Shown here: positions 18,230 to 64,000 of the stretch, in pieces
Layout: each line of letters starts with the position of its first letter
Numbering within the stretch: the first letter of the stretch is position 1
Made by a program: the position numbers and the translations under genes
IMG/VR virus record: IMGVR_UViG_3300024344_002032
Span: 23,859-87,858 of that record
Length of the DNA stretch: 64,000 nucleotides
Source of the DNA: a virus
Reading direction: 5' to 3' (one strand)
The notes under the pieces: model-generated
The model's database searches: none
What the model saw: the letters and a program-made list of their open reading frames with translations, nothing else
What the model was told of the DNA's origin: nothing

Positions 18230-19717
18230 TTATTTAGTAAAAACCTTTACTCCATAACGATCTTCAAAGTCTTGTGCATCTTTCTCATCATTGACGATTG
18301 GTTGACCTTTTATATTCAAACTTGTATTTAAAACCATAGGACAACCTGTTTCTTTATAAAATTCTTTAATTAATCTGTAATAATTAGGATTATCTTCTTT
18401 AGAAACAGTTTGAACTCTTGATGTTCCGTCAACATGACAAATAGCAGGATATTTATCAGGATACTTACAATTTGCTACAAACTGCATAAACTGAGACTTA
18501 CGAACTGGCATATCAAATATCTCATGAGCGTGTTCTTCCAATACACTTGGTGCGAATGGTCTAAATTCTTGTCTATGTTTAATCTTATTTACTTTATCTT
18601 TTATATCTTTACCTCTTGGATCAGCAAGTAAACTTCTATTACCTAATGCTCGTGGACCATATTCAGCTTTACCATTTGCTACACCAACTATGTTACCCTT
18701 TAGTAACTCACCAAGAACTTTCTTTACAGGATATCTACCTTTTATATTATGTCCGATAAAACATTGTTCAAAGTTAATCTTATCACCATAAACATAAGCT
18801 GCTGAACCTAATGATGAACCTGCATCACCTGGATTTGGCATAATCCATATATCTGGATACATATGTTTAGCTACAAGTGTATTAGCTACACAATTTAATG
18901 CAACTCCACCCATATAAACACAATTATTTGTTTGAGGAACTAATAACTTTGCTAATTTCATAATTTTTAATATTTCTTCTTCACATATCCGTTGAACATT
19001 AGCAGCGATAGTAAAATTCCATTCGTCTGATTCATCGTCTGGATAATATTGAGAATCCCAATCTAAACATCCCCTATGTAAATTTCGTTTAAGGTTTAAA
19101 GTGTCATCATTAAAGAAACTATCCCGTATCTCATATGATATGTGTTCATCCCATTTTCCCCAACCAGCCATACCCATTAGGATGTATTCATCTTCTTGTG
19201 GTTTCAATTCTAATCTTTGTGTCATAGCTGAATACCATAAACCTAATGAATGTGGATACTTTCTACTCCACTTTTTTTCAAACTTACCATCCTTTACGTA
19301 CCAAATAGTAGCACAATCCCACTCACCGATTGCATCTATTACTACAACAACTGCTTCATCAAATGGTGAAGTGTAATATCCTGCTGATGCGTGTGATAGA
19401 TGATGATGAACATAATGTATTTTTTGGTTTATACCAAATTGTTTTAGATACTGTTTAGGTGTATTTTGTCTTGTGAAGACTTCACTATATTGACCTGCGT
19501 AAAGTTGTCGTGTCTTTTTGAGATATGGTTTTTCAAACCAAACTACTTTATCTGGTTTACCAAAAGATAGAGCTTCATCTATTATCTCTTGATTTAGATC
19601 CGAATCGTTTTTCTTACCACTATATCTTTCTGAATGTGCTCCGAATAGTATTTCACCATCTTCAATGACACAAACTGCCGCATCGTGGTTTAATGCGTTA
19701 ATGCCTAATATTCTCAT
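18230..19717 (-). CDS. Carbamoyltransferase, NodU/CmcH family
   Basis: Transfers carbamoyl from carbamoyl phosphate, through carbamoyl-adenylate, to a hydroxyl of a sugar or natural product. 495 residues. N-terminal domain starts MRILGINALNHDAAVCVIED and has the HHLSHASAGYY histidines; the C-terminal YrdC-like part has GKAEYGPRALGNRSLLADPR and QEFRPFAPSVLEE, both hallmarks of NodU/CmcH/TobZ. It lies at the downstream end of the modification block, 8 nt after a B12-type radical SAM gene. An O-carbamoylated sugar is the most likely product. Confidence 0.92.
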   Translation of the reverse strand: MRILGINALNHDAAVCVIEDGEILFGAHSERYSGKKNDSDLNQEIIDEALSFGKPDKVVWFEKPYLKKTRQLYAGQYSEVFTRQNTPKQYLKQFGINQKIHYVHHHLSHASAGYYTSPFDEAVVVVIDAIGEWDCATIWYVKDGKFEKKWSRKYPHSLGLWYSAMTQRLELKPQEDEYILMGMAGWGKWDEHISYEIRDSFFNDDTLNLKRNLHRGCLDWDSQYYPDDESDEWNFTIAANVQRICEEEILKIMKLAKLLVPQTNNCVYMGGVALNCVANTLVAKHMYPDIWIMPNPGDAGSSLGSAAYVYGDKINFEQCFIGHNIKGRYPVKKVLGELLKGNIVGVANGKAEYGPRALGNRSLLADPRGKDIKDKVNKIKHRQEFRPFAPSVLEEHAHEIFDMPVRKSQFMQFVANCKYPDKYPAICHVDGTSRVQTVSKEDNPNYYRLIKEFYKETGCPMVLNTSLNIKGQPIVNDEKDAQDFEDRYGVKVFTK

Positions 19718-52288: not shown

Positions 52289-52392
52289 TATTTGTATATA
52301 AAAGGATCTCTCTTTTTCAATTCTTTAATCTTTTTTCTATATCTTATTTCTAATCGTATTTTAGAAACTAATTTTTTAATCCACTTTATCAT
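52288..52392 (-). CDS. Small basic peptide of 34 residues between two radical SAM genes
   Basis: ATG at 52392 lies inside the last codons of the upstream radical SAM gene; the stop overlaps the ATG of the next one (TAATG). The 35 codons fill the 87-nt gap exactly, arguing that it is translated. The product, MIKWIKKLVSKIRLEIR... ending ELKKRDPFIYK, is a basic amphipathic helix with a short C-terminal tail. No recognised function; perhaps an accessory peptide, or a substrate of one of the flanking enzymes. Confidence 0.55.
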   Translation of the reverse strand: MIKWIKKLVSKIRLEIRYRKKIKELKKRDPFIYK

Positions 52393-53881
52393 TTTGTTTT
52401 CTCCTTAACATTTCAGCTCTTCTTTGTTCTAATCGAATAGCTCTTTGTGTTTTAGTAGTGCTTTGTCTACAACTATTATAAAATTCTTCATACTCAGGAA
52501 ATGCTTTCAAAAAATCTGTATCTCTTCTCTTATCATGTTCAGTAAAGAAATTATAAAAATCACTTCTTCCTTTTCTAAGATAATCCTCACTAACTTCTGC
52601 TGATTTAAAATAATCTACAACTCTTCTAAACTTTTCTACTTCTAATGTTTTAAATTTAGTATTATCTTCATCATTCTGAAAATTCATCATAAACTCTAAG
52701 TGTCTATTCATATAATGAGTAAAATCTTCTTTAGGTAAAATATTCATATCATAGTGTGGTGGTTCTTTTAAATATGGTGTATCCATCTGTATTCTCTGAA
52801 GTGGTATTGGTTGATTTATATTACCACGTTCTTTTGCACCTTTATCGTTATACTTTTCTCTCCACTTTAATATCTGCTCTAATAATGAATCAAAATTAGA
52901 AACACATAAATTATTAAAAGTAATCATTAATGATAATTTAGAATCTTTAATTTCAGTTAAATACTTATCAAAATTTCTCTTAAATAATTCTATATCTAAA
53001 CCATTTCTTATATATTCAGCTTTATCTTTATCCCAAGTATCTATAGAAGTAAATAGTTTAAACTCTTTTACTTTTTTCTCCTCTATAATTGGTTTTAACT
53101 TTTCTATAAACCTATCAAAGAGTTTTGGATTTGCACCAAGATTAGAATTTATGTTTAACTCAAGATTTGGCATAGGGTTCTTATTAATCTCATCTAATAA
53201 TCTATATGTACTACCATGTATTGTTGGTTCACCACCTGTAATCCTTAATATATTTAATGTCTTAGAAACTTCTGGCCACCACTTCCACCATGCTTCAATA
53301 TATGGATTATCTTCTTCTGATTCATATAACTTGTCAATAAACCAATCTACATCATATGTGCCAGTATAATTCTTTGTATAAGGACCAAATTTTTTAATCT
53401 CATCTAAAAATCTTGAACTGTATCTTGGATGACAATAACCACATTTAAAGTTACAAGAATTTCCAAATGAAAGTTCAATGTATTCTGGATTAACATTCAT
53501 ATCCCAGGGGTTATTTATGATATCATCTAATCTACTTTTATCTCCCTCATGTATTGATAGTGTTCTTTGTTTTCTATCACTTATATAATCAGAACCCATA
53601 GATTCTACATTCCAACAATAAGTACATCCTGCAGGTTTCTCACCCTCTAACATCATCTTTCGTTCTAACTTCTTTTGTTTGGTATTGTGTAAAGCAGATG
53701 GATTGTCTTTCAACTCATCTAAAGGAATAACGTGTGGTTGTGGATGGTAACAGCTATGAGTCTCACCTAAATGTAGATAGATGGTAACATGATGCCATTT
53801 GGCAAGACAAAAAGTAGGACTTGTTCTTGCTTCTATCTGTGGTAAAATCTCTTTTATACGATCGTGTTCGTAATTACTCAT
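52376..53881 (-). CDS. Radical SAM protein, twitch-like
   Basis: 501 residues from ATG at 53881 (MSNYEHDRIKE), overlapping the upstream stop. N-terminal cysteine region FCLAKWHHVTIYLHLGETHS...CY, CTYCWNVESMG, then SFGNSCNFKCGYCHPRYSS near residue 145 and ILRITGGEPTIHGST. C-terminal 90 residues are charged helix. First radical SAM gene after the three galactosyltransferase-like genes, overlapping the last of them. Confidence 0.88.
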   Translation of the reverse strand: MSNYEHDRIKEILPQIEARTSPTFCLAKWHHVTIYLHLGETHSCYHPQPHVIPLDELKDNPSALHNTKQKKLERKMMLEGEKPAGCTYCWNVESMGSDYISDRKQRTLSIHEGDKSRLDDIINNPWDMNVNPEYIELSFGNSCNFKCGYCHPRYSSRFLDEIKKFGPYTKNYTGTYDVDWFIDKLYESEEDNPYIEAWWKWWPEVSKTLNILRITGGEPTIHGSTYRLLDEINKNPMPNLELNINSNLGANPKLFDRFIEKLKPIIEEKKVKEFKLFTSIDTWDKDKAEYIRNGLDIELFKRNFDKYLTEIKDSKLSLMITFNNLCVSNFDSLLEQILKWREKYNDKGAKERGNINQPIPLQRIQMDTPYLKEPPHYDMNILPKEDFTHYMNRHLEFMMNFQNDEDNTKFKTLEVEKFRRVVDYFKSAEVSEDYLRKGRSDFYNFFTEHDKRRDTDFLKAFPEYEEFYNSCRQSTTKTQRAIRLEQRRAEMLRRKQNDKVD

Positions 53882-55301
53882 CCACAAACCTCACATTAAT
53901 CATTTTATGATTTTTATAAACTTCTTCAATATTATCTATTTTATATTTCATATTTTTTACACCATATTGATCATTATCAATATCAATTTTATTCTCTTGC
54001 ATTTCTAATCTATATAATCTCTCATTTACTTGAGTAGTATCTTTTGCAAATGTATCACCTACTATACCCTCATCTTCGTGTGGTAAACATTTAAATCTAC
54101 TAAATCTTCTATGTGGAACAACTGTAAATGGTATTTTGTCAATAACTTCTTGAGTTATACTAGCAGTATTTCCATTCCACAATTGACCATGATTTTCATA
54201 ACCACTTTTATCAATAATAAATTTATAATCTTTAACAGTTTCAAAATCATAATCCAACACTACTTCGTCTCTATGATTTATTATCTTAAAATAAGCTAAA
54301 CTACCATTAAATGTTTTATGATATTCATTATTGTCATCTCCTTTACCAAGAAACATATCAGAACCACCATATCTTTTAAGTGGTGTAAAATATTCTAATG
54401 GTGATTCTGTTCCTGTACCATGTCTTGTATCAGAATCTTCTCCGTTTATTTGTAATCTTATATGTTTCTTTCTATCGTCAACTTTAACATTAACTAATGT
54501 CCATTCATTAGGATATCTTTTAGCCCAACTATATAATATATCATTCTTCCAACTCCACATTGTATTGGATATTGCTCTTGCATTAGTATAACTAATTGTA
54601 TGATCCCACCCTCTTCTACAAAAAATTGGATATTGTAAATGTTTATGATTATCATCCCCAATTAAATATTGATTATCATAATCATGTTGTGGTTTAACTA
54701 ACATTTCAATTTCAAAATTTCTACTATTGAAATTATGTAATGATCTTGATGATGGTATTTTAACGTAACTATATCCTAAATTGAGAATACTTGTTACTCC
54801 TGGTCCTTTAAGATATCTATCATTTGTCATTCCTTTTAAATGACATCTCCAAAACAAATCATCGTCTTCCATTCCCCATCCCCAATAGTTGGCATGGTAT
54901 CCATTTACTTTTTCAAATTGTTCTATAGTAAATAAAACAACACCACCAAAGTATTCTACATCTCTGAGATTATAATCCCATTGTGATAAGTAAGTTGCTA
55001 TGTGAACTGGATTGTCTTTTGGATAACTATAGTCTGCACCATCTTCAGGTAACATATCTACATCATGAAATGCTACATAATCACAACCCTCTTCTTTAGC
55101 TGCTAGAAATGCAGCATTTTTTGTACCACTTCGATTGAATAATTTATCATCTACTTGATGACCAATAAAAATTTTGTGTTTTATATTCCTATCATTAAGA
55201 AATTTAGTTAGATAGGGAACTAATGTATCTAAATGTTTTTTTCTAACACCATCACCAGTATCTCTATAAGGAATGCAGACACCCAAATAATGTTCTGACA
55301 T
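53874..55301 (-). CDS. GT7 (beta-1,4-galactosyltransferase-like) with inserted LamG-like domain, copy A
   Basis: 475 residues. Residues 1-150 match beta4GalT: GVCIPYRDTGDG, AFHDVDMLPED (DVD 80-82), YFGGVVLFTIEQFEKVNGYH and NYWGWGMEDDDLFWRC (140-148). About 200 residues of jellyroll-like strands follow (FEIEMLVKPQHDYDNQ, NEWTLVNVKVDDRKKHIRL). Then VPHRRFSRF and YGVKNMKYKIDNIEE resume, matching the end of beta4GalT (DGLNSLTYQV in the human enzyme). So the LamG-like part looks inserted, not appended. Metal and acceptor residues look intact. Confidence 0.82.
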   Translation of the reverse strand: MSEHYLGVCIPYRDTGDGVRKKHLDTLVPYLTKFLNDRNIKHKIFIGHQVDDKLFNRSGTKNAAFLAAKEEGCDYVAFHDVDMLPEDGADYSYPKDNPVHIATYLSQWDYNLRDVEYFGGVVLFTIEQFEKVNGYHANYWGWGMEDDDLFWRCHLKGMTNDRYLKGPGVTSILNLGYSYVKIPSSRSLHNFNSRNFEIEMLVKPQHDYDNQYLIGDDNHKHLQYPIFCRRGWDHTISYTNARAISNTMWSWKNDILYSWAKRYPNEWTLVNVKVDDRKKHIRLQINGEDSDTRHGTGTESPLEYFTPLKRYGGSDMFLGKGDDNNEYHKTFNGSLAYFKIINHRDEVVLDYDFETVKDYKFIIDKSGYENHGQLWNGNTASITQEVIDKIPFTVVPHRRFSRFKCLPHEDEGIVGDTFAKDTTQVNERLYRLEMQENKIDIDNDQYGVKNMKYKIDNIEEVYKNHKMINVRFVDE

Positions 55302-56860
55302 TACAACTCCACACTAATCAATGTAGTATTATCTGATAATTCCTTTTTATCTACAAACTTATATTTTAAAGTATTTAATCCGTCAATGTGCCAATCTTCT
55401 AAACCATTCTTTACTTTATTAAAAAATCTTGTTTGATTTCCTCTTGTCTCTGGATGTATCCAATGTAATCCGTCAGCTGCCCAAGCAGATTTCTTATGTT
55501 CTTGTGATGAAAAACCACCATATCTACGATGTGGTATACTCAAAAAAGTTCCCAACGATCCCACCTTTTGTCCTTTTTTAGCTCCAACTATATCACCACT
55601 ATTAAACCAACCACTATTATCTAAAACTTGATTTCCTACAATATGTTTGAAATCATAATATAAAAGTAAATTATTAGAACTTACATACTCATCAAAACTA
55701 TCAGTTAAACTTTTTATATAATTGTTATTATATAATGACTTAACTTCTTTCATATCTAAAGCACTATTCCAAATAGCAACCTCAGATATCTTTCCTTTAA
55801 AATTATAAGAGTATTCTTTATTATCTGAATGAGCACAACCTAAATAAATAAAATCTTCTTTTGTATAATCATATAACTTTTCTATCTTTTTAGAATCTAC
55901 TATCTCACCATTTTGATAGAAAGTGAATCTATCTGCTTCTTTGTTATAAACCATAGTTAAATGATTAAAGTATTCTGTTTCTATATCTGTAAGGATTGCT
56001 TGTGATTTTAAATCAGAATCAAATATATCTGCTTTATATCTTCTATGACTTGTATAAGATAAACCACAATGATAACCAGGTATAGAAAAAACAAAATGTT
56101 CATCATATGGTATATCCTCTACTTGATGTTGTGTATCTGGTTTTAAACTAACTGTAACACTAAAGCTATTTTGAGTTAATTTTTTAAGTTCATCCGTAAC
56201 AGTTATTTTTACATAATCGTCAAAACCATCAAAAATTAAAAAATCATAAAGGTTTTGATTTTTCACACCAAAAAACTTATTATCTATTGGTAATCCTGCT
56301 TCTTTACATCTAAACAATAAGTCATCATCCTCAAATCCCCATCCCCAATAGTTATTTGATCTACCATTTACTAATTCATATTGATCTCTTGTAAATAAAG
56401 TTACACCACCAAAGTAATCAGCAAATTGTAATTGATAATCGTATTCACTTGTATAACCAGCAAGATGTATTGGATAGTGTTCAGGATAAGAATAGTCAAC
56501 ATCTTTTTCTGGCAATAAGTCAACATCATGAAATGCATAATGAGTAAAATCCCAATCAGAACATTTATGGTCTCTCCATTTCCTACGAAAAGATTTAGCT
56601 AAACTATAACTTGTTCTTGTTCTTAACTCAGAATCAAAGTTTTGTCTATTAGATGGATATTCTTTTCTTATAGTTGAAGCGAAACCAATATTTAATAACT
56701 TACCCTGATTAAATGATTTGTTATCTGATTGTTCTACTACAAAAATATGATAATCTGTATCTTTATCAGAAAAAAACTTATCTATATGCTTGATAAATCT
56801 ATCAAGTTGTTTTTTTCTATTCCGATACGGAACTATTATCGCTAGCTTCGACTTTTTCAT
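55301..56860 (-). CDS. GT7 (beta-1,4-galactosyltransferase-like) with inserted LamG-like domain, copy B
   Basis: 519 residues from ATG at 56860 (MKKSKLAIIVPYRNRKKQLD), the start aligned with the other copies. AFHDVDLLPEKD (DVD 112-114), YFGGVTLFTRDQYELVNG and NYWGWGFEDDDLLFRC (to 180) are canonical. Residues about 205-390 are the LamG-like jellyroll (FSVTVSLKPD, FTFYQNGEIVDSKK, GKISEVAIWNSALDM). The GT7 end returns at SIPHRRYGGFSS and DGLNTLKYKFVDKKEL. Overlaps a small gene by 44 bases. Confidence 0.83.
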   Translation of the reverse strand: MKKSKLAIIVPYRNRKKQLDRFIKHIDKFFSDKDTDYHIFVVEQSDNKSFNQGKLLNIGFASTIRKEYPSNRQNFDSELRTRTSYSLAKSFRRKWRDHKCSDWDFTHYAFHDVDLLPEKDVDYSYPEHYPIHLAGYTSEYDYQLQFADYFGGVTLFTRDQYELVNGRSNNYWGWGFEDDDLLFRCKEAGLPIDNKFFGVKNQNLYDFLIFDGFDDYVKITVTDELKKLTQNSFSVTVSLKPDTQHQVEDIPYDEHFVFSIPGYHCGLSYTSHRRYKADIFDSDLKSQAILTDIETEYFNHLTMVYNKEADRFTFYQNGEIVDSKKIEKLYDYTKEDFIYLGCAHSDNKEYSYNFKGKISEVAIWNSALDMKEVKSLYNNNYIKSLTDSFDEYVSSNNLLLYYDFKHIVGNQVLDNSGWFNSGDIVGAKKGQKVGSLGTFLSIPHRRYGGFSSQEHKKSAWAADGLHWIHPETRGNQTRFFNKVKNGLEDWHIDGLNTLKYKFVDKKELSDNTTLISVEL

Positions 56861-57053
56861 TTCTTCTTGGTGGTCTATTTGGATTACCCTCAACTTGCGC
56901 TTTTAATAGATTGTAAAATTCATAATAATACCACTCTATTCTTTCTTGATGTTGAACTAAATCAAGTTCAAGTAATGTATCTTCCATTGTTTGTAAAGAT
57001 GTAGCAATACTTTCAAGAGATTTTACTAATCTATCTATTTGTTGTTCTTCCAT
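56817..57053 (-). CDS. Small coiled-coil protein between galactosyltransferase-like genes
   Basis: 78 residues from ATG at 57053, preceded by AGGAG at 5 nt; the longer frame to 57083 runs into the upstream gene. MEEQQIDRLVKSLESIATS and TMEDTLLELDLVQHQERI form a charged helix; the tail is Pro/Arg/Glu-rich. Function unknown. It overlaps the start of copy B, so translation may be coupled. Confidence 0.55.
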   Translation of the reverse strand: MEEQQIDRLVKSLESIATSLQTMEDTLLELDLVQHQERIEWYYYEFYNLLKAQVEGNPNRPPRRNEKVEASDNSSVSE

Positions 57054-57061
57054 AAGAACTC

Positions 57062-58651
57062 CTATGTTATTATTTCTAACCATTCATGGTTTGTTTCATA
57101 TTCTTTTCTACTACCAAGTTTGTAGTCTAAATTATTTAAACCTATATCATCTATATCTATTGTACCTAACCTAACTTCACCAAAAAATATATCCCCATTT
57201 TGTAATATATCTGGATCATATGATTTTAATTGTGTAAGAATATGTTCTTTATAATTTAATTCTTTTCCATCATCTAAAGTTTTATATACACCAAATCTTC
57301 GCATAGGTACTTTTATTTCATTCCCTAATATTATTTCTTCTTTATCGTGAGTTATAAATTTGTTACCAACCATTTTAGCTTTATTACCTATTAGAGCTAA
57401 TCTCTCTGTACTACCAAAGGGAAATTTATCAGTATTCCAATCTCTATACTTATTTTTACCACTTCTATCAGCTTTTTGTTTTGCTATATATTGATTAGGA
57501 TTTTTAGTATTGGTAGTAAAAACTCCATTGTTTTCATTTCGTGTTTCATCTAATATGAAACTTCCGTAACCTTTATCACATCTATAAAATAATAATGGAT
57601 TATATCTTAAATCTTCTATCTTATCCACATATAATGTTCTAACATCTTCTAAATTTAAATTAGTATTCCAAAAAGAAATTTCACTAATATCACCTGTAAA
57701 ACAATGTTCTTTTTCTGAATCTGAACCAATATAAAACCATTCATCTTTAAAATCTTCTAATGTAGTTATTTTTTTAATATCAATTAAAGAACCATTTATA
57801 TATGCTTTAAACTCTTTACTATCTTTATCATATACCATACATAAATGATACCATTCATTTGGTATTCTATAATCTTCTATTACATAAGCATTATTTTTAT
57901 CATCCCAAAGAGTAAATTTAAACTTATCTTCTGGAGTATAAGTTATACCAAATCCTATAGGTGGCCTTGTAAAAATAAATTGTTCATAATCATTATGTTT
58001 TGGGTTTACCCATATAGAAAAAGAAAAACTTTTACTTGTTAAACCATTTATAGAATCTGAAGTTTCTATTTCTATACAAGTATTTCTTTCAAGAGTAATT
58101 TTATTTAAATCTTTTCTTATATAATTGTTATGTAAATAAATTTGCTCAAATGAATATCTTGAATTTTTTGATACTGATGAAATATCTATAAAGTTTTCTA
58201 ATGGTAATTCTTTCTCAACCATTCTATGCAACAAATCATTATCTTCATATCCCCAACCCCAATATTCATCAGAAAATCCATTGATTTGTTCAAAGTGTTC
58301 TTTATTGATTAAGAATACTCCACTAATAAACTCTTCGTATGGAATATATTGATCATCTACAATTGAAGCTAAATGAGTTGGTTCATCAGTATAGGAATAA
58401 TCACACTCATCTGTCATAGGTAATAGGTTAACATCGTGAAAGCAGAAGTAATCAAAATCATCTTTAATTACATCAAAAACTGAATTAAACAATTGACCTC
58501 TATTAAAAGGTCTATCGTCTCTTTGTTCTGCTACGATAATTTGATAATCGATTCCTTTATTTTCTAAAAAGGAATCCATATGTGGTATGAAAATGTCTAA
58601 TTGTTTACGTCTATCACGATACGGAACAATTATTGCTAATCTTTTATCCAT
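57062..58651 (-). CDS. GT7-like protein with inserted LamG-like domain, copy C (altered active site)
   Basis: 529 residues. LAIIVPYRDRRKQLDIF, FCFHDVNLLPMT and DEYWGWGYEDNDLLHRM follow the beta4GalT order, but DVD is DVN (73-75) and EDDD is EDND (131-139), changing residues used for metal and acceptor. LamG-like strands occupy about 190-375 (FSFSIWVNPKH, FKAYINGSLIDIKK, GDISEISFWNTNLNL). The GT7 end is IKVPMRRFGVYKT and IGLNNLDYKLGSRKEY; the His seen in copies A and B (PHRR) is Met. Likely weak, altered or inactive. TATTTATA lies 22 nt before its ATG. Confidence 0.8.
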   Translation of the reverse strand: MDKRLAIIVPYRDRRKQLDIFIPHMDSFLENKGIDYQIIVAEQRDDRPFNRGQLFNSVFDVIKDDFDYFCFHDVNLLPMTDECDYSYTDEPTHLASIVDDQYIPYEEFISGVFLINKEHFEQINGFSDEYWGWGYEDNDLLHRMVEKELPLENFIDISSVSKNSRYSFEQIYLHNNYIRKDLNKITLERNTCIEIETSDSINGLTSKSFSFSIWVNPKHNDYEQFIFTRPPIGFGITYTPEDKFKFTLWDDKNNAYVIEDYRIPNEWYHLCMVYDKDSKEFKAYINGSLIDIKKITTLEDFKDEWFYIGSDSEKEHCFTGDISEISFWNTNLNLEDVRTLYVDKIEDLRYNPLLFYRCDKGYGSFILDETRNENNGVFTTNTKNPNQYIAKQKADRSGKNKYRDWNTDKFPFGSTERLALIGNKAKMVGNKFITHDKEEIILGNEIKVPMRRFGVYKTLDDGKELNYKEHILTQLKSYDPDILQNGDIFFGEVRLGTIDIDDIGLNNLDYKLGSRKEYETNHEWLEIIT

Positions 58652-58713: not shown

Positions 58714-59907
58714 TTAAATTGCAGTTCCACCTACTCCTGGATCTTCAACGAATGTATGTGCTGAATCTGATACTGGTGCACTCTCACTACCTTTATTATG
58801 AACTAATACATTTTCTGCAAAATATGTGTTGTTACCATCCACATCTACATTTACAATTTCTATTTCTTCTTCTATTTCTTCTATAGTATCTATTGAAATT
58901 TCTTTCATATCTTTATCATGCATAATTTGACCAACTTTTAGATTACGAACATATTCCCAACACCAAAATTCTTTACTATCTTTTCCCTCTGTTTCTAAAT
59001 AAAATCCCTCTGGAATTTTAACAAAAAATGGATGTTCACCTGTAACTTTTATTTCACCATTAATAAGAAAATAACTATCAGCAAAATCAAAGAACATATT
59101 AATTATTTTAGATGTAACCACTTCAGATTCACCTAACTCTGTAATACAATATTCAGCAAATGATACTTCACTTGCAATCATTGGATGTTCATCTTCTGTT
59201 TTTGCATTTGGCATTCTCATAGAAAGAAGTTCATCACCAATAGCTAATTCTTGTATTTCTCTTTGTGTTCCATCTGCTAATGTAAGTTTAGTATCTGGTG
59301 TAAAACAAGTAATAGCAACACTATTGTATGTATCTTCTACTTGAGTAACACCAACAATATATTTATTATAATTTGTTGCGTGATCATTAAATCCACTTGA
59401 TACTCTATCGTCAACATATGCTGCTGACATAGATACTTTAAAATCTCTTGTATGTGCTGCTGAGAACTCAGGTCTTGTACCATCTCCATCACCTGGTACA
59501 CCAGATGTTCTATTTGATATTGCACCTGCTGTAAACGAACCTGTATAATTTGGTTGTGTCGCTGAAGAAGTATTATAAACTGTACCAGCAGATCCTGATA
59601 ATTGGATAGCGTGCCAAACAAAGTTATGATGCCAAGTTCCTATTCTTGAAAGAAATCGTGAACCTGCATCAGAAAATTCCATTTTAACTATTTCATTAGT
59701 TCCTTCATCATGAAATTTACTTTTTGAAAGTGCTGCGGTTACTGATGAAATAGAGAAATCCGACATTTTAAAATCATTGCCGCTAGTAGTACCACCAGCG
59801 TCTGCACGCAATTTTGAATCTGCTGTAGTATCACTACTAACATTTGCTGGATCTGTAGCTCTTCTCAGTTTTCCTAACGATAAATTTTGTCCTGAATCAG
59901 TTGCCAT
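58714..59907 (-). CDS. Virion-like protein with C-terminal Hint (intein-like) domain and short tail
   Basis: 397 residues. Residues 1-200 are Ser/Thr/Gly-rich, starting SGQNLSLGKLRRA with FKMSDFSISSV, the style of phage fibre or adaptor proteins. Residues 201-371 form a Hint domain: Cys201 in TCFTPDTKLTLADGTQREI, block B VTGEHPFFVK, and GNNTYFAENVLVHNK ending in His370-Asn371. A 26-residue tail follows; its first residue is Lys, not the Ser, Thr or Cys needed for standard splicing. So cleavage at either end is more likely than splicing (bacterial intein-like type A). Confidence 0.82.
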   Translation of the reverse strand: MATDSGQNLSLGKLRRATDPANVSSDTTADSKLRADAGGTTSGNDFKMSDFSISSVTAALSKSKFHDEGTNEIVKMEFSDAGSRFLSRIGTWHHNFVWHAIQLSGSAGTVYNTSSATQPNYTGSFTAGAISNRTSGVPGDGDGTRPEFSAAHTRDFKVSMSAAYVDDRVSSGFNDHATNYNKYIVGVTQVEDTYNSVAITCFTPDTKLTLADGTQREIQELAIGDELLSMRMPNAKTEDEHPMIASEVSFAEYCITELGESEVVTSKIINMFFDFADSYFLINGEIKVTGEHPFFVKIPEGFYLETEGKDSKEFWCWEYVRNLKVGQIMHDKDMKEISIDTIEEIEEEIEIVNVDVDGNNTYFAENVLVHNKGSESAPVSDSAHTFVEDPGVGGTAI

Positions 59908-59943: not shown

Positions 59944-61002
59944 TCAAGAATTATATATTTCTAAATATTTGTTCACCCATTCTTTTTTATCCGTATACCT
60001 ATCTAATTTATCTTTTAGATAATCAATGTAACCTTGTCTTTTATTTATGTCTAATTCACATATTTGTTTCCAACACTCTTCAAATTTTTCTTTTGTAGAA
60101 GCTCTAAATGGATATTCTATCTCATTTAACCAATCTTCTGATAATATAGGTATTTTACCATAATCAACTGCTTGAAATATACTATAACCAAATGGTTCGT
60201 ATATGTGAGCTGAATGTGATATTCCCCAATCATCTCTTTGTAAAAAACTCTCTAATCTTTCCCACCTATATTGATATAACCTTGATTTATTAAATTTTAA
60301 ATTTAATTTTTCTTTCCATTCTTTAAAATGATCTACTCTTGTAAAAAAATAAGATGGAATGTCTTCTAAAAAATGAGGTGCTTTTCTTGTTTCCATTCTT
60401 GAACAAAAACCAACTCTATTACTTTCTACTGCTTTACTATCTCCTTTAAACTCATAAAAATTTGGTATGTCTATAATATCATAATCTTTATGATAAGTGG
60501 TATCACTTAAACCTATCCATATAGTCTTTTTAGCTATATCTAACATTTCTTTTTCCCAACTATCATCTGCTGAAAAATGTTTTAACCAAGATAAACCCAA
60601 ATCTTTATGTGCTCTTAATGATTTATAAAGAGAGCAATGCATCACATTAGATTCTATCTTATCTGCATTATCTAATATAACCTTTGTTGGTTCATAATAA
60701 CTATGAAGTATATGAATCTTTTCTGCACCATTAAGTATTGTATAAAAATCTGGATGATTTCTATAAATTGCTTCTACACAAATCGTACTATATGGAAAAT
60801 GCTTTATATCTTTATCTGTATTTAATCTATTTCTATCTATTAATAGAAAAAAAGGTTTATTTAATTTAGGTGCTATTTCTTTAATCCAATAATTAACCCA
60901 AACATCAGAACCACCACCTATATTAGAAGCTCCGCCTGTACTATAATAAACATCATATTCTTTTAATGATATTGTTCCTGCAATTAATTTTATTGACGAC
61001 AT
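59944..61002 (-). CDS. GT-B glycosyltransferase, GT4-like
   Basis: 352 residues. TGGASNIGGGSDVWVNYWIKE near the start is a typical Gly-rich acceptor loop; HIYEPFGYSIFQAVDYGKIP near residue 275 is the EPFGxxxxEA donor motif, with Gln in place of the second Glu. VGFCSRMETRKAPHFLEDIP is the strand before it. Sits between two Hint-protein genes, its start overlapping the upstream end by 13 bases, so its target may be virion proteins made from neighbouring genes. Confidence 0.78.
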   Translation of the reverse strand: MSSIKLIAGTISLKEYDVYYSTGGASNIGGGSDVWVNYWIKEIAPKLNKPFFLLIDRNRLNTDKDIKHFPYSTICVEAIYRNHPDFYTILNGAEKIHILHSYYEPTKVILDNADKIESNVMHCSLYKSLRAHKDLGLSWLKHFSADDSWEKEMLDIAKKTIWIGLSDTTYHKDYDIIDIPNFYEFKGDSKAVESNRVGFCSRMETRKAPHFLEDIPSYFFTRVDHFKEWKEKLNLKFNKSRLYQYRWERLESFLQRDDWGISHSAHIYEPFGYSIFQAVDYGKIPILSEDWLNEIEYPFRASTKEKFEECWKQICELDINKRQGYIDYLKDKLDRYTDKKEWVNKYLEIYNS

Positions 61003-61688
61003 AAGTAACCGTTTGCAAAATATGTGTGTATATTTCTTAAACCAAGAGTTACTATTTCAAAATCACCATGCATTTTTTCTATTGTTGTAACTTCTTCTAA
61101 TTCAAAATTTGAAGTAACCATTTTATCTCCTATTTCTACAGCTTGTGCTTGCCACCACTCAAATGTTTGAAGTTTATCTTTCCAAACAAATGCTGGATGT
61201 TTTTCTGTAGTATAATATTTTTCATTTATGTTCACATATCTACTGATAAAATCAAATGTTAATTGTTTTACCAAACCCACATCTTTTGTAAAACCATCTA
61301 AATTTTCTATACTATATTCTCTATAATTCTCTTCTGTCATATCAGGCATTACTGCTGAACACACTTCATCATCTATCAGTAAATCTTCAACTAACTTGAT
61401 ACTTCCATCTGCCATAAGTATTTCAGTTCCAACTAAAACACAAGAATTATATTTGTAACTATAAAACTCATTCATTCCATATGGTCCTGCAAGTAGATTA
61501 GCTCTTGAAGTACTTCCCTCTGTATTAGCTCTTGCTGAATATTCAGATGAAAGACCAGCTAAATCACTATTAGCAGTTTGGTCATTAAAATCCATCGCTT
61601 CACTTGTTTGTGTTGTCGTACCATCACCTGACATAATTTCATAATTAAGCATTCCAACAGATATTGTTCCTGAGCTTGGTAGTGTCAT
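60990..61688 (-). CDS. Small fibre-like module with C-terminal Hint domain lacking His-Asn
   Basis: 232 residues. MTLPSSGTISVGMLNYEI and GPYGMNEFYSYKYN resemble short repeats found in phage tail proteins. The Hint domain runs from Cys83 (CVLVGTEILMADGSIKLVE) through block B TTEKHPAFVW to NIHTYFANGYLCRQ at the C-terminus. The His-Asn at the end is missing, so only N-terminal cleavage or thioester chemistry is expected, as in intein-like type B domains. The last codons overlap the start of the GT-B gene. Confidence 0.8.
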   Translation of the reverse strand: MTLPSSGTISVGMLNYEIMSGDGTTTQTSEAMDFNDQTANSDLAGLSSEYSARANTEGSTSRANLLAGPYGMNEFYSYKYNSCVLVGTEILMADGSIKLVEDLLIDDEVCSAVMPDMTEENYREYSIENLDGFTKDVGLVKQLTFDFISRYVNINEKYYTTEKHPAFVWKDKLQTFEWWQAQAVEIGDKMVTSNFELEEVTTIEKMHGDFEIVTLGLRNIHTYFANGYLCRQ

Positions 61689-61689
61689 T

Positions 61690-61959
61690 TTATAATCCTA
61701 AACTGCCGCTAAACTCTCCCTGCATAGAAGATGATAGGTATAATTCATACATTTCTTCTTTTTGTGTATTATTCCACGAACCTGTAAATTCGGATAAAAT
61801 ATAATCTCTACCAAATTTAGATGATGTCTTTGGATAAACAGTATTCAAAGTTTCTATTGTTTGAAATAAATCTACATTACGAGATCCAGAATACCAATCT
61901 ACTAACCAATCAGGATACCAACCATATGGTATTGATCCTGAATATTGCCTTTTAGCCAT
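61690..61959 (-). CDS. Small aromatic-rich protein downstream of tail fibre
   Basis: 89 residues, rich in Tyr, Trp and Ser (SIPYGWYPDWLVDWYSGSRN), overlapping the tail-fibre stop by eight bases and ending one base before the Hint-module gene. Position suggests a small virion or fibre-attachment protein. No family recognised. Confidence 0.5.
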   Translation of the reverse strand: MAKRQYSGSIPYGWYPDWLVDWYSGSRNVDLFQTIETLNTVYPKTSSKFGRDYILSEFTGSWNNTQKEEMYELYLSSSMQGEFSGSLGL

Positions 61960-64000
61960 TTTGTAACTCCTTTATTTGTTTTTCTTGTTTGTTAACTTTA
62001 TCTGTAAGTTCATTGACTGCATTAACTAAAACACCAACTAAATTTGAATATTTTAAAGAAAGTTCTCCATATTGAGGATCTTCTTCTACAAGTTCAGGTA
62101 AAACTTTTTGAACTTCTTGTGCTATCATACCTACTTGTCTTCCTACTGGATTATCTACTAAGCTTTTACCATATCTATCTGGCGCTATTTCTTCAGGCTT
62201 TTTCCAATCAAATCTAACACCTCTTAATTGATTTATTAAGTTTAATGAACCAGAAATAAATTCTATATTTTTCTTAGATCTTCTATCAGAATATGCTGTT
62301 ATATTACTTGTAGCGTAAATTTCTCCAGTTACGTGTAATGCATAACTTGGATTTTTTATATTAATACCTACTCTATTTTCGTGAGTTGCACCAAATTTAG
62401 TTCTTGGATATGCTATAAAACAATAATCGTGATTAGTATTACTTGGTTCTGAAGCACTTCCTGTCCAAGCATTTCCTACAATAAGAGGTCCACCACGAAA
62501 CATACCAGCACAATTATTTTCTTGCCAATCTGATCCATCTAAACCAATATCACCGCCAACACATTCACCAAGAACTCCAGCAACGTGTCCTCTATTTACA
62601 ATACCAAAGACACCTACAGCTGCAGCACCACCAGCTCCTCTACTATTTGAACCAATTACTGAAGCATTTACTTCATTGTCAGCTAAATTACCACCTAAAT
62701 TAGAACTAATTCCCATTATACCTGCATCATATCTTCTAGGACCACAAGTTCCTTCTGCTCCACCTAGCCAAGTTCCACCAATACCATGAGCTGACGGATC
62801 TGAAGAACCACCACCGCCAGAATGAATATACCAATGTCTTAATCTACCAGGTGTTACATAAAGGTCATTTTCATAATCCACATTAATAGCCATATCTGTA
62901 TCAGTACCAGCTATGATGTGGCATTTATTAGCTGTAGACCCATCACCAACTTGTGCAGTTCCATAAGATATAGTCAAACCTTCATCAATATCCGTTACAT
63001 CATCAGCAATTACAATTTTTGAATTACCTTGATCTAATAAAACTTTATCTCCACCTGTAAGTGTGGTAGTACCTAATGTCCACCCACCTACTGTTCCTGA
63101 TGTAGCTTTTAATACACCTGCATTTGTAACACTAAATTCAGCATCAGCGAAAGTTGAATCTCCCATTTGGATACCAGTTCCTGGTATTAAACCTATATAA
63201 TCTGCATCTGATCCTGCAGATAATTTATCATTTGCTAAAGTCCATCCACCTATAGTTCCACTTGTTGATGTTATTGCACCACCACTACTTACTTGGAAAA
63301 CACTATTAATGTTAAGTGAACCACCAGTAATAGTTATATTACTTGCAGTCATCGCACCATCTTTAGTAACTTGAAATGGTGCTGAACCCTGCGTTGCGTT
63401 TCCAATCCACATATCCCCATCAGTATCTACTCTGAAAATACTATTACTACTACCGATTGACAAACCACCACCCGTAATCGTTATATCACTTGCAGTAACT
63501 GCTCCATCTTTAGTAACTTGAAATGGTGCTGAACCCTGTGTAGCGTGTCCTATCCATAAATCTCCATCACTAGCTACTCTGAAAATACTATTACTACTTC
63601 CTACTGACAGTTCACCACCAGAAATTGTTATATTACTTGCTGTAACTGCTCCATCTTTAGTAACTTGAAATGGTGCTGAACCTTGAGTTGCGTGTCCTAT
63701 CCATAAATCTCCATCAGTATCTACTCTCAAAATACTATTACTACTACCTATACTTAACGAACCACCAGTAATTGAACCATTAAAGGATGCTGCTCCACTT
63801 GCATCAATTGAAACATTACTACCTATTGTAATAGTTCCGTCTGCTGCAAGCGTCATTTTATTGGTGGTATTATTTCTTAAATTAATTGCACCACTTGTAA
63901 TCTGAACATTTGATTTACTTGAACCAACTTCTCCAACAATTACTGCACCACTTGATAGTTGTATAGTATCAACATTATTTTCCCTTATAGTTATTCCACT
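61952..64000 (-). CDS. Tail fibre protein with repeats and S74 self-cleaving chaperone (5' end off window)
   Basis: Receptor-binding or side-fibre protein. The frame is open to the right edge (no stop in the 48 codons above the first ATG at 63856), so the start is outside. Near the edge, a beta-rich repeat region (SSGAVIVGEVGSSKSNVQIT) leads into three nearly identical 49-residue units (GSAPFQVTKDGAVTASN). A Gly-rich knob follows (HWYIHSGGGGSSDP, GVFGIVNRGHVAGVLGE). The end has the S74 intramolecular chaperone: AYSDRRSKKNIEF, GVRFDWK and QVGMIAQEVQKVLPELVEE, then a trimer helix. The chaperone should cut itself off after folding. Confidence 0.9.
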   Translation of the reverse strand, partial: SGITIRENNVDTIQLSSGAVIVGEVGSSKSNVQITSGAINLRNNTTNKMTLAADGTITIGSNVSIDASGAASFNGSITGGSLSIGSSNSILRVDTDGDLWIGHATQGSAPFQVTKDGAVTASNITISGGELSVGSSNSIFRVASDGDLWIGHATQGSAPFQVTKDGAVTASDITITGGGLSIGSSNSIFRVDTDGDMWIGNATQGSAPFQVTKDGAMTASNITITGGSLNINSVFQVSSGGAITSTSGTIGGWTLANDKLSAGSDADYIGLIPGTGIQMGDSTFADAEFSVTNAGVLKATSGTVGGWTLGTTTLTGGDKVLLDQGNSKIVIADDVTDIDEGLTISYGTAQVGDGSTANKCHIIAGTDTDMAINVDYENDLYVTPGRLRHWYIHSGGGGSSDPSAHGIGGTWLGGAEGTCGPRRYDAGIMGISSNLGGNLADNEVNASVIGSNSRGAGGAAAVGVFGIVNRGHVAGVLGECVGGDIGLDGSDWQENNCAGMFRGGPLIVGNAWTGSASEPSNTNHDYCFIAYPRTKFGATHENRVGINIKNPSYALHVTGEIYATSNITAYSDRRSKKNIEFISGSLNLINQLRGVRFDWKKPEEIAPDRYGKSLVDNPVGRQVGMIAQEVQKVLPELVEEDPQYGELSLKYSNLVGVLVNAVNELTDKVNKQEKQIKELQNG
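63326..63766 (-). repeat. Three tandem 147-bp repeats in the tail fibre
   Basis: Three units with 147-bp period; landmarks recur exactly at 63357, 63504 and 63651. Each codes 49 residues around WIGHATQGSAPFQV. A shorter, diverged fourth unit (GGSLNINSVFQV) follows downstream. They suggest length variation of the fibre shaft by recombination. Confidence 0.9.

Follow-up and report, generated by a model that had tools for sequence, protein, structure and literature searches.

The DNA analysed here, referred to as the window, is a stretch of 64,000 nucleotides from a virus record of 87,858 bases, in which it occupies positions 23859-87858. Profile searches of the window matched Portal_T4 (266 bits), Peptidase_S77 (95 bits) and the T4-type Terminase_6N (47 bits). 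The window thus encodes a T4-type portal, a prohead protease and a terminase, and its source, an aquatic phage, is therefore T4-like.

Three split proteins and their surroundings

The sequence-only reading had placed three tandem GT7/LamG proteins at 53874-58651. The three ORFs, designated A, B and C, are present there on the minus strand and are transcribed in the order C, B and A (Table 1). Pfam domains follow in the order GT7N, GT7C and Laminin_G_3 in each protein, and GT7N and GT7C scored above the cut-offs in all three. Laminin_G_3 (PF13385) was above the cut-off in B (56.0 bits) and C (82.3 bits) and just under the cut-off of 27.6 in A (26.3 bits). Profiles of the core, the insert and the tail, made from relatives other than the window and L007 sequences, recovered the order core, insert and tail in all three proteins, the bit scores for insert/tail being 88.9/53.6 in A, 174.7/70.8 in B and 74.7/43.8 in C. 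The insert comprises about 230-290 residues when the linkers are counted. All three proteins are soluble by hydropathy.

The motifs that had been ascribed to all three proteins are less uniform. DVD and WGWGxEDDD hold for A and B, and C has HDVN and WGWGYEDND instead. The C-terminal pair PHRR and DGLNTLKYK is found as such in B, and its counterparts are PHRR/YGVKNMKYK in A and PMRR/IGLNNLDYK in C. Window B also has about 37 extra residues between GT7N and GT7C (around residues 78-113; 56555-56662), which are not found in the other aligned relatives and are modelled with low confidence.

Table 1. Features of the split GT7 locus and adjacent genes in the window.
Feature	Position	Strand	Remarks
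Radical SAM protein directly after A	52376..53887	-	homologous gene after A in most relatives
Protein A, 475 aa	53874..55301	-	split GT7, paralogue clade A, predicted active
A, GT7 second part	53877..54125	-	residues 393-475; PHRR 396, metal His 408, YGVKNMKYK
A, inserted LamG-like jellyroll and linking strands	54126..54812	-	residues ~164-392
A, GT7 first part	54813..55301	-	residues 1-163; HDVD at 79, WGWGMEDDD at 140
Protein B, 530 aa	55301..56893	-	TTG start; split GT7, clade B, predicted active
B, GT7 second part	55304..55543	-	residues 451-530; PHRR 454, metal His 466, DGLNTLKYK 504
B, inserted jellyroll	55544..56254	-	residues 214-450
B, GT7 first part	56270..56893	-	residues 1-208; HDVD at 122, WGWGFEDDD at 183
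Protein C, 529 aa	57062..58651	-	split GT7, clade C; DVN, Asp for metal His; catalysis doubtful
C, GT7 second part	57065..57316	-	residues ~446-529; PMRR 449, IGLNNLDYK
C, inserted jellyroll and linkers	57317..58174	-	residues ~160-445; LamG 198-337
Putative glycosyltransferase, upstream	59944..61002	-	weak GT1 match, E 0.16
Tail fibre protein with S74 chaperone domain	61952..63856	-	upstream of the cassette

The cassette sits inside a sugar-biosynthesis island of about 48 kb, beside the tail fibre gene. The island contains radical SAM and B12-radical SAM enzymes, epimerases, a UDP-sugar dehydrogenase and sugar-nucleotide enzymes, together with a NolO-like carbamoyltransferase (18230-19717, minus strand; PHROG 1601, E 1e-106), an aminotransferase-like protein and a cytidylyltransferase-like protein. 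Radical SAM genes of the SPASM and B12-binding types are unusually numerous among the sugar-biosynthesis genes on the minus strand at 13457-53887. Beside the cassette, the minus-strand ORFs at 58714-59907 and 60990-61688 have tail-like N-termini followed by Hint (intein/hedgehog-type) domains that score below the Pfam cut-offs.

No multi-pass membrane protein was evident in the window island or among 557 neighbour ORFs, which means that neither a flippase nor a polymerase of the phage was seen. A cytoplasmic acceptor would account for this, but so would export by the host, and the result does not discriminate between the possible targets. Pelagimyophages and cyanomyophages have a similar large island in their structural gene region, where radical SAM genes occur together with those for tail fibres and glycosyltransferases; in pelagimyophages it was named the host recognition cluster and interpreted as a means of O-chain modification, and unlike the island described here, it comes without mention of a galactosyltransferase or LamG in the text (PMC7029224). 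In other aquatic jumbo phages, virion glycosylation has been raised as a possibility (PMC12619734).

The GT7 fold around the jellyroll

AlphaFold models were obtained for A (pLDDT 93.4, pTM 0.90) and B (pLDDT 83.5, pTM 0.80). The A model aligned with bovine B4GALT1 at Z 28.1 and 1.9 Å over 218 residues (model 1-475 against chain 177-402), and the B model aligned with bovine B4GALT1 1tvy at Z 27.4 and 2.9 Å over 221 residues (model 9-530 against chain 174-398). Jellyroll structures, namely 4dqa, PAPP-A, PTX3 and laminin LG (Z about 16-23), matched the inserts and aligned to the middle of each chain only, at about 164-392 in A and 214-450 in B; the inserts adopt a ConA-like jellyroll fold in both predicted structures. 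Since the alignments with B4GALT1 use both chain ends and the jellyroll lies mid-chain, the GT7 fold of A and B closes around both ends, as had been expected of a structure prediction. A complete GT-A/GT7 fold including the C-terminal segment was thus found in A and B by predicted structure and in C by profile only. A circularly permuted jellyroll, considered for the DxSGxxNxG motif at the end of the insert, was set aside because the pentraxin alignments run in order.

GT7 proteins with an empty site were searched for with a tail profile made from insert-bearing phage proteins only. It matched bacterial insert-less GT7s immediately after the core, with the best i-E of 3e-8 (L121). The gap between core and tail in insert-less GT7s is about -2 to 5 residues, a corrected value for which the tail model also held L025, and in the viral insert-less relatives L025 and L138 the tail is likewise continuous with the core. 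This contiguous tail is the strongest sequence evidence pointing to an insertion. The same tail profile gave no B4GALT match among PDB sequences; sequence alone therefore does not tie the tail to the animal enzymes, to which it is linked through structure and the bacterial intermediates. We consider it confirmed, by models for A and B and by profiles for C, that in all three proteins a LamG/pentraxin-like jellyroll splits the GT7 domain. A true interruption of the catalytic domain, as opposed to a mere fusion, is upheld by the predicted structures, by the insert-less homologues and by the trees described below.

The site taken up by the insert is the beta-hairpin that immediately precedes the metal-binding His. 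In B the insert is located between strands E204-208 and E455-463, about 10 residues ahead of the metal His466, which is presumably the equivalent of the metal ligand His347 of bovine B4GALT1, a match supported by the alignment. B4GALT7 and B4GALT1 are the nearest solved structures by sequence. These animal beta-1,4-galactosyltransferases (CAZy GT7), which are Golgi membrane enzymes, share with A and B the GT-A fold over the whole domain, DVD, WGWGxEDDD, the metal His, the YFGG Tyr and a DGLN-type C-terminal segment, but have no jellyroll insert. Insert-less bacterial (L112, L113, L115 and L121) and viral (L025, L138 and L139) GT7s have a core of the same family with a contiguous tail; unlike in the split proteins, their hairpin is a short turn. 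The jellyrolls of LamG, pentraxin and PAPP-A (PF13385) match the insert, but there they form a separate domain, outside glycosyltransferase folds among the matches listed. The split GT7 belongs to a known enzyme family, and its interrupted architecture is apparently undescribed.

Relatives, paralogues and cassette order

A domain search had been proposed for GT7 split by LamG in other genomes, and it was productive: 196 distinct full-length relatives with core, insert and tail were found, with an interruption of 191-336 residues (median 249). As so many distinct relatives share the insert, chance or misassembly is excluded. The first scan gave 19 viral loci, and an alignment-based scan yielded 439 confirmed stretches; 80 of these were retained. 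Because retrieval was biased toward insert-bearing relatives of B, the proportions given below are no population estimates; several loci also share one contig.

Species-level bacterial and archaeal genomes contributed 29 loci only, the chromosomal ones of which match the core alone. The insert-bearing ones lie on MAG contigs (L106-L110), at least three of which (L106, L107 and L109) share their neighbouring genes with the viral loci and are therefore probably viral contigs placed in bacterial bins. On these three, the cassette and phage-like neighbours lie on contigs binned as Flavobacteriales or Pelagibacterales MAGs. In catalogued phage genomes, tblastn found no match for A or B and, for C, three weak matches to the jellyroll part only. 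A BFVD structure search gave no full-length match among the matches listed, which were GT7-only or jellyroll-only, and no description of the split-GT7/jellyroll architecture was found among open-licence PMC papers. Since the split GT7 recurs in many uncultivated phages and was not found in catalogued isolates or genuine bacterial genes, it looks like an undescribed, phage-specific design as far as the collections searched show.

The tree of core plus tail has three clades: A with 25 rows (SH-aLRT 99), B with 37 rows (80) and C with 24 rows (98). A tree of the inserts alone gave the same groups A, B and C with the least possible number of changes, so each insert travelled with its own enzyme. 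In a larger tree with viral insert-less proteins, the presence of the insert needs two changes, though there may have been only one. A single origin of the insertion followed by duplication into three paralogues is compatible with these trees.

Of 96 loci, 49 have the order C-B-A and 38 have B-A. Upstream in the relatives there are a GT2-like gene (83 loci) and a methyltransferase gene (69 loci), and in 26 related loci the cassette is preceded by a homologue of the putative glycosyltransferase at 59944..61002. Downstream there is a radical SAM protein homologous to that at 52376-53887 (88 loci), usually followed by a free jellyroll protein. In many of the loci L029-L105 the free jellyroll, recognised by an insert profile match, comes directly after the radical SAM gene at about 8.2-9.4 kb. 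Five loci (L076:6554-8719, L079:6867-8981, L086:3167-5305, L091:6855-8993 and L103:3084-5231) encode proteins of about 710 aa with a jellyroll of the insert family at the N-terminus; in the L076 protein the remainder after the jellyroll is a radical SAM enzyme. The jellyroll is a module common to the cassette, occurring in GT7 inserts, in free proteins and in some radical SAM fusions.

Catalysis and the role of the jellyroll

The metal-binding and catalytic residues (D.D, ED and H) are intact in 25/25 proteins of clade A, in 36/37 of clade B and in 9/24 of clade C. Window A and B are among the proteins with intact DVD, WGWGxED and metal His. In window C the motif reads DVN, the metal His is replaced by Asp, and Phe stands at the position of the YFGG Tyr; this Tyr is invariant in clades A and B and altered in part of C. 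Therefore, A and B are predicted to be active galactosyltransferases, and activity of C is doubtful or lost. The YFGG Tyr, which we take to be Tyr289 of the bovine enzyme, favouring Gal over GalNAc, suggests UDP-Gal as the donor for A and B. C is, judging from its residues, a GT7 homologue that is not classed as a working GT7 enzyme, and it is now probably a non-catalytic or weakly active partner.

In B4GALT1, the flexible loop forming the acceptor site comes after the metal His. As the insertion is upstream of this His, the jellyroll may lie near the acceptor site, and the proposal of the sequence-only reading that the insert binds the acceptor beside the active site fits the insertion point. 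Polypeptide GalNAc-transferases have a ricin-type lectin domain, a carbohydrate-recognition module of their own that guides the acceptor. They may be regarded as a functional analogue of the split GT7, although they belong to another GT family, use another lectin fold and carry it as a C-terminal fusion.

Taken as a whole, the explanation to which we give about an even chance is as follows. A single insertion would have placed a LamG/pentraxin-type jellyroll in the beta-hairpin of a phage GT7, just ahead of the metal-binding His, and duplication would then have yielded three paralogues retained as a C-B-A cassette. A and B, by their conserved residues, would fold as metal-dependent GT-A galactosyltransferases using UDP-Gal, and the jellyroll would stand on the two hairpin strands beside the catalytic centre, where its most likely role is to hold a glycan or a glycosylated protein as the acceptor. 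Galactose would thereby go to a particular target that the sugar-biosynthesis island of the phage makes or modifies, and C would serve as a non-catalytic or weakly active partner. The insert of A and B would thus be a built-in module for acceptor recognition or docking, and the enzymes would decorate a phage-directed glycan, the target being perhaps a virion protein or a host surface glycan. Against acceptor binding, the insert columns conserved across the clades are mostly structural-looking (Gly, Trp and Asp), the inserts diverge to 23% mean identity, and the presence of the same module elsewhere in the cassette suits a docking role equally well. The B4GALT fold tolerates a whole lectin-like domain in its catalytic core, next to the acceptor-site loop, and aquatic phages have retained the split form in at least three paralogues. 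Should the insert determine the choice of acceptor, it would be a natural model for reprogramming GT7 specificity and a handle on the glycan islands of T4-like aquatic phages, whether these serve to change the host O-chain or to decorate the virion.

It is possible, though somewhat unlikely, that the jellyroll is a protein-protein docking module without sugar binding that scaffolds C, B, A, the radical SAM protein and the free jellyroll, C being structural. One jellyroll family does occur in the three GT7s, in the downstream free protein at most loci and in several radical SAM fusions, and C retains the fold and the jellyroll while its catalytic residues erode. However, binding of glycans or other ligands is also common among LamG and pentraxin-type folds, and fast divergence of an insert is more usual for ligand recognition, although co-evolving partners could also produce it. 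A more specific proposal, which we regard as unlikely, is that the cassette from C through the radical SAM gene to the free jellyroll constitutes a new type of phage machinery for glycosylation, in which the jellyrolls would recognise a phage-made acceptor such as a tail fibre or adhesin, the virion glycan would be made in the cytoplasm and C would be a dead organiser.

It is very unlikely that the split proteins have ceased to be enzymes and are virion components, namely receptor-binding lectins derived from a glycosyltransferase and encoded with tail fibres. The adjacent S74 tail fibre gene, the name given to this type of island in pelagimyophages (PMC7029224) and the loss of catalytic residues in C agree with such a role, but these residues are retained in 61/62 A and B proteins, and mean identity is much higher in the core (0.495) than in the insert (0.23), as would be expected if they are enzymes. 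A simple fusion, in which the whole GT7 domain would precede the jellyroll and the C-terminal segment would form a small domain of its own, agrees with the Pfam GT7 models, which stop before the insert, and with the PDB search by the tail profile alone, but this outcome, which the sequence-only reading had named as its refutation, was looked for in the A and B models and not seen, and it is rejected as practically untenable because the alignments of A and B reach the C-terminus of B4GALT1 and the tail, which carries the metal His, is contiguous with the core in insert-less homologues.

As a minor observation in the related loci, L135 (3691-8709) and its neighbours encode tail-fibre-like proteins that are very long and repetitive, with GDGTDLTI as the repeat; one has 1672 aa.
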